The notes under the pieces: model-generated
Databases searched by the model: none
What the model was told of the DNA's origin: nothing
Seen by the model: the letters and a program-made list of their open reading frames with translations, nothing else
Program-made: the position numbers and the translations under genes
NCBI GenBank assembly: GCA_963556255.1
Contig: OY744605.1
Coordinates: 6,960,114-7,024,113 of the forward strand
Source of the DNA: Allolobophora icterica
Lineage: Eukaryota > Annelida > Clitellata > Crassiclitellata > Lumbricidae
Length of the DNA stretch: 64,000 bases
Reading direction: 5' to 3'
In this document: in pieces, positions 33,913 through 60,122 of the stretch
Position numbering within the stretch: the stretch's first letter is position 1
How the letters are laid out: the number at the start of each line of letters is the position of its first letter

Positions 33913-34196
33913 CTACTTGAAGTAGATCAAGTACTCAGGATAGGCTTGTGTATCGTAGAATATGACGAAGATGATCGGATTGGTGGCATTGTCAACAGTC
34001 GAATCGTATTGTACGGTTGTACTTCCAGATTTTGATGGTGGCACAATCATATTCTGGTTACCCACTGCATACTCTCCCGTTAGCACTTTGCATTTGTATA
34101 TGTGCTTGTAACCGTTTGCATCTGGTATAGAGTATGTATTATGTGCTGAGTAGCTGAAGTTCTTGGCAAAGGCGACACCTCTTCCATACACAAACG
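33913..34196 (-). CDS. Gene C exon 4, PARP C-terminal half and stop
   Basis: Acceptor TTAATTAACAG, then two bases completing GCG (Ala) to give GKNA followed by FVYGRGVAFAKNFSYS. It continues through YKCKVLTGEY, a PP loop, YDSTVDNATNP and QAYPEYLIYFK to the stop at 33913, close to the chain end seen in PARP10/14/15. The motif GxGxYFA, nearly invariant in PARPs, reads GRGVAFA here (GTCGCCTTT), so the tyrosine equivalent to PARP1 Tyr896 is alanine. Confidence 0.9.

Positions 34197-60122: not shown

Follow-up and report, generated by a model that had tools for sequence, protein, structure and literature searches.

The TRIM and PARP families both include members linked to innate immunity. TRIM proteins share the order RING, B-box, coiled coil (RBCC) and are divided into C-terminal classes that include NHL, PRY-SPRY, filamin and others, and the catalytic type of an ADP-ribosyltransferase (ART) is read by the H-Y-glutamate triad rule. 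In the Aplysia immunome, 22 TRIM and 17 PARP genes were counted separately (PMC9334734). A clade 3 PARP of Dictyostelium has been described with a U-box, which is an E3-type domain, and PARP6/8 of fungi, moss and Chlamydomonas with an E2 (UBCc) domain (PMC4245714). Ubiquitin esterified to ADP-ribose is a current topic (PMC12583694; PMC12000418). No chain joining TRIM to PARP was named in the titles and abstract openings of the open-licence papers that were searched.

The window analysed here is a stretch of 64,000 nt of Allolobophora icterica DNA (contig OY744605.1), and all positions refer to it. A preliminary description had joined the RBCC exon of one TRIM copy to three PARP exons as a single fusion gene. 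Probably, the locus instead comprises two genes on the minus strand, a TRIM gene and, after it, a PARP gene with the catalytic domain only. The Dictyostelium U-box PARP resembles the joined model in carrying an E3-type domain and a PARP on one chain (PMC4245714); it has a U-box where the model has RING, B-box and coiled coil, and here a single chain is a possibility. DTX3L with PARP9/PARP14 is alike in that a RING E3 acts with PARP14-group ARTs, and unlike in that the chains are separate and that the domains listed for DTX3L are RRM, KH, RING and DTC, with no B-box among them (PMC13224862). The novelty earlier argued for a TRIM RBCC plus PARP chain was too strong, given the U-box PARP and the UBCc domain on PARP6/8; an E3-PARP chain has precedent in Dictyostelium, and a fusion would vary a known kind (PMC4245714).

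The TRIM copies and the PARP catalytic domain

Feature coordinates are given in Table 1. Splice sites were scored using a simple consensus matrix that is not tuned to Allolobophora icterica. Spliced together, the four exons of the joined model give 1740 nt with the stop (1135 + 146 + 175 + 284), that is, 579 uninterrupted codons, which bears out the exon coordinates, phases and open join first proposed. Pfam placed a RING, two B-boxes and a PARP domain (residues 405-578, E 2.5e-19) on the joined protein, and the presence of RING, B-box and complete PARP domains was confirmed by these matches, by zinc-ligand patterns and by alignment to PARP14/15. The statement that all acceptors and donors are good did not hold: the acceptor of e4 has a score of 0.44, which 9.0% of AG sites reach or exceed, and the donor of e3 one of 2.33 (reached or exceeded by 3.3% of GT sites). 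By itself, in-frame joining has a one-in-three chance.

Table 1. Features of the TRIM-PARP locus, in positions of the window
Feature	Position	Strand	Remarks
e1, RBCC exon of TRIM copy C (RING, B-box 1, B-box 2, coiled-coil stretch)	58988..60122	-	1135 nt, phase 1 at end
e1b of copy C, shortest form	58878..58888	-	11 nt; acceptor 7.14, donor 6.39
e1b of copy C as putative terminal exon	58749..58888	-	46-residue tail, TGA
PARP exon e2	56788..56933	-	146 nt, phase-1 acceptor, ATG at 56931-56929
PARP exon e3	38169..38343	-	175 nt, catalytic histidine (LWHGTS)
PARP exon e4	33913..34196	-	284 nt with TAG; catalytic tyrosine, isoleucine replacing glutamate, QAYPEYLI
TRIM copy B, RBCC exon	23774..24920	-	phase 1
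e1b of copy B	23641..23681	-	acceptor 7.90; 13-residue tail and stop if terminal
LTD-like stretch after copy B	22789..23186	-	doubtful exon
TRIM copy A, RBCC exon	8559..9705	-	phase 1
e1b of copy A	8412..8467	-	acceptor 7.14; 18-residue tail and stop if terminal
LTD-like stretch and stop after copy A	7821..7975	-	doubtful exon
Reverse-transcriptase ORF	11549-12967	+	near copy A
Reverse-transcriptase ORF	34393-34803	-	long intron of PARP part
Reverse-transcriptase ORF	35095-36786	+	long intron of PARP part
Reverse-transcriptase ORF	42716-45694	+	long intron of PARP part; 992 aa, uninterrupted

In the joined protein, RING models cover residues 13-62, where the C3HC4 ligands are present, and the zf-B_box model exceeds its cutoff on two stretches (best 152-190); residues 95-136 also match an ANCHR-like B-box model, below that model's cutoff. 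Ligand patterns were found for the RING, B-box 1 and B-box 2. The domains stand in the TRIM (RBCC) order, with a putative coiled coil assigned from its position and from PDB matches to TRIM5 and TRIM3 along that stretch. The best PDB matches of the RBCC exon are TRIM3 and TRIM2 chains (E 9.4e-19). The likeness to TRIM2/TRIM3 lies in these matches, the two B-boxes and the coiled-coil stretch; the difference is that no filamin or NHL domain occurs in the scanned ORFs (all 19 listed for intron 1 and 10 of the 40 listed upstream) and that the tail of copy C is perhaps short. Among viral contigs, none of nine pattern matches was a relative of the RBCC exon.

Copies A, B and C lie on the same strand, all open, with an RBCC protein identity of 74-80%. 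Over 378-382 codons with zero stops, dN/dS among the copies is 0.34-0.46 by two methods (0.37-0.46 for copy C against A and B). The RBCC donor reads CGG|GTAAG, and GTAAG is the same in all three copies. By BLAST, A and B are similar throughout the exon and for about 0.8 kb past it, then again farther on, and the likeness of copy C ends at 58876 (against B) or 58865 (against A). By eye, a patchy likeness of copy C may extend to about 58830. Copies B and C form the closest pair in 976 of 1000 bootstraps with all columns, 831 with the exon, 935 with the 5' flank and 214 with the intron start, a clock being assumed; rooting of the three copies was rejected as too weak to tell which of their 3' parts is the older.

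Copies A and B were also said to carry a different C-terminus at the same position. The candidates are stretches at 7975 and 23186 that look like the beginning of a lamin tail domain (LTD). Their acceptors score -2.0 and -2.8, and the match in B (Pfam E 0.19) reaches 12.5 bits against a cutoff of 34.3. Over 49 codons, A and B differ with a dN of 0.289 and a dS of 0.276 (dN/dS about 1), with 13, 13 and 9 differences at the three codon positions. With poor acceptors, a sub-threshold match and no sign of coding constraint, it is unproven that A and B end in an LTD, and this reading was rejected; the stretches may be what is left of an earlier tail exon. Among open-licence papers, none on a TRIM with a lamin tail domain was found. 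By eye, the indels in the stretch are multiples of three, which favours coding. The C-terminus meant was left unnamed; should it be the e1b tails, such a tail is present in copy C as well.

In the PDB, the PARP part is closest to human PARP14, aligned over residues 14-200 of 200 (E 1.6e-53), and to PARP15, aligned over residues 1-199 (E 2.6e-50). The alignment with PARP14 runs without a break across both internal junctions (NIIK|IERIQN and SGKN|AFVYG), and tBLASTn found e2, e3 and e4 just once each in the window (other matches E 0.98 or worse), so the three exons form one gene part. By alignment to PARP14, the catalytic positions of the joined model are H462, Y501 and I561. The domain thus combines H and Y with a hydrophobic residue where glutamate would stand, and its sequence is that of a complete catalytic domain of a PARP14/15-type mono-ADP-ribosyltransferase. 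The PARP part is like human PARP14 and PARP15 in the whole ART domain, the mono-ART type and an aliphatic residue replacing glutamate. It is unlike them in that the scanned ORFs hold no macro, WWE, RRM or KH domain. PARP14 has leucine at the glutamate position (PMC13224862), and isoleucine stands there in the present sequence. Since no macrodomain occurs in the scanned ORFs, the gene was filed by its catalytic domain only and not as a macro-PARP. None of eight pattern matches to e4 in viral contigs was a relative. In prokaryote contigs, one of 28 was reported as a relative (26 residues of a bacterial MAG), and on comparison with the whole PARP part it was dismissed as chance, being one short run with an internal stop and no other ordered PARP segment. 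Rfam gave no matches at gathering scores.

The interval between the RBCC exon and e2

Two features of this interval were overlooked in the preliminary description, namely a strong acceptor that all three copies have 91-99 nt past the RBCC donor, and the ATG at 56931. The acceptor is T-rich and lies 91 (A), 92 (B) and 99 (C) nt beyond the donor. Its scores are 7.14, 7.90 and 7.14. The minus strand has 4246 AG sites, of which 12 score that high, e1b of A, B and C among them; for the plus strand the figure is 3 of 3557. Over the 112 aligned columns with which the intron opens, the copies differ pairwise by 23-24%. Neutral substitution at 23% was simulated from copy C (200,000 runs for each model, indels ignored), and the acceptor score was kept in both other copies in 0.3% of runs with independent descent and 1.5% with a star tree. 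Because such a score is rare and its neutral retention in A, B and C improbable, the acceptor looks used.

Joined to e2, the 11-nt form of e1b in copy C gives ...DWHEKWMFLRIGKL and then a stop, with PARP out of frame. There are 11 GT sites between 58888 and 58749. The three that score at least 2.3 (58877, 58760 and 58752; phases 0, 0 and 2) are all out of frame with e2. Four of the 11 leave phase 1 and so keep e2 in frame; the highest-scoring of these, 58771, has 0.59 and the others lie below -4. With the stronger e1b donors out of frame, a fusion needs e1b to be skipped or the weak donor 58771 to be used. Within 200 nt past the e1b stop, AATAAA or ATTAAA occurs in each copy, at 8317 and 8242 in A, at 23447 in B (ATTAAA only) and at 58556 in C (AATAAA); taken alone this is weak evidence, because the DNA is AT-rich. 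As sequences, the short e1b tails are too dissimilar to prove coding.

Exon e2 opens AG|AA ATG G, with its ATG two bases inside the exon and the ATG residue three places ahead of the P in the conserved P-x-x-W start. The genomic context, GAAATGG, has G at -3 and at +4, which is a good start context. No other ATG occurs in the 100 nt preceding it, and the upstream frame is open for 36 codons without an ATG. From this arrangement, a separate PARP gene could begin at 56931. The e2 acceptor scores 4.15, which is fair (1.3-1.4% of AG sites score at least as high: 57 sites, or 58 of 4246 with the cutoff set slightly lower). With such an acceptor of its own, e2 is probably joined by splicing to some sequence upstream. 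Of 119 GT sites between 58830 and 56934, just 3 score at least 2.3, so a separate non-coding 5' exon for PARP is not evident.

ORFs of intron 1 of at least 28 residues were listed, low complexity excluded. WWE, macro or other PARP-type domains were absent from all 19 of these and from the 10 scanned of 40 listed upstream ORFs. No TRIM C-terminal class domain matched above its curated cutoff in the 19 intron-1 ORFs, and the LTD-like stretch of copy B is likewise below cutoff. The matches listed in the ORF scan have E values of 0.088 to 0.31, all below cutoffs.

Two genes or one chain

The sequence would allow three products, a TRIM alone, a PARP alone and a fusion. Two neighbouring genes are favoured because of the e1b acceptor and the ATG at 56931. 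In this arrangement, the RBCC exon of copy C would be followed by a 99-nt intron and the short tail exon e1b, and the gene would end near 58556, as is likewise proposed for A and B. Its predicted product is a RING E3 ligase that would dimerise through the coiled coil. The second gene, with three exons, would start at its own ATG and encode a predicted PARP14/15-type mono-ADP-ribosyltransferase of 200 residues, so that a coiled-coil-dimerised RING E3 would stand beside a soluble mono-ART. Use of e1b in copy C, the PARP transcript start and both activities are what we infer. Against two genes are the fair acceptor of e2, the lack of an evident 5' exon for PARP, the dissimilar e1b tails, the in-frame passage from e1 to e2 and the in-frame route through 58771; the latter leaves the assessment unmoved, as its score lies below that of every donor proposed as coding here (2.33 to 6.72). 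Two genes would be an ordinary pairing of known families, and would illustrate how easily a tandem array yields an in-frame chimera on paper if a small exon is overlooked.

What stood of the fusion claim is that the two sets of domains exist side by side on the same strand and can be joined in frame; against it, the chain must skip 58888, the best acceptor of the intron and one found in A, B and C, or use its weak donor, and the PARP part has its own ATG in good context. A single TRIM-PARP protein, with the RBCC exon spliced directly to e2 and an ART in place of the substrate-binding domain, is therefore rather unlikely. It would draw on the open 579-codon join, the e2 acceptor in the top 1.3-1.4%, the distance of 2 kb on the same strand and the lack of WWE, macro or other PARP-type domains in the ORFs scanned, yet a phase match is expected one time in three by chance. 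BLAST homology of C stops 112 nt (B) or 123 nt (A) past the RBCC exon, as a swap of the 3' part predicts; the end of a tandem duplication would also give such a break. It is doubtful that the 3' part of copy C was swapped for a phase-1 PARP14/15-type ART cassette, e1b being skipped, so that one chain ubiquitinates and mono-ADP-ribosylates. Such a chain might bring a dimeric E3 and a mono-ART to one bound target, or its ART might modify the E3 itself; MARUbylation, i.e., ubiquitin on mono-ADP-ribose, would be one possible product. If the fusion were true, it would be an animal TRIM with a mono-ADP-ribosyltransferase effector end and a natural test of combined ubiquitin/ADP-ribose marks, for which copies A and B would serve as the natural pre-swap comparison.

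Chimeric read-through transcripts of conjoined genes are known. It is improbable that the two genes also give rise to a chimera of this kind as a minor form, by skipping the tail exon and capturing the acceptor in the PARP 5'-UTR, though this would fit the shared strand, the short gap and an acceptor two bases ahead of the ATG. Decay of copy C or of the PARP part to a gene fragment without a product is very improbable: reverse-transcriptase ORFs in the two long introns, one of them near e4, and the weak e4 acceptor would suit decay, whereas the RBCC dN/dS, the absence of stops there, and a PARP part open throughout with all three catalytic positions present argue against it.

Retroelements and simple repeats

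Pfam RVT_1 was found in four of the five ORFs scanned for it (E 3e-27 to 6e-12; Table 1). By eye, reverse-transcriptase-like sequence at 33850-34197 on the minus strand seems to come near the e4 acceptor. Within the same interval, CAGCGTTT occurs twice, once spanning the start of e4, and is possibly the trace of an insertion. Long simple repeats, seen as repetitive ORF translations, lie at 13095-13713, 26432-27007, 39216-40061, 42012-42365, 47199-47534 and 52410-52953.
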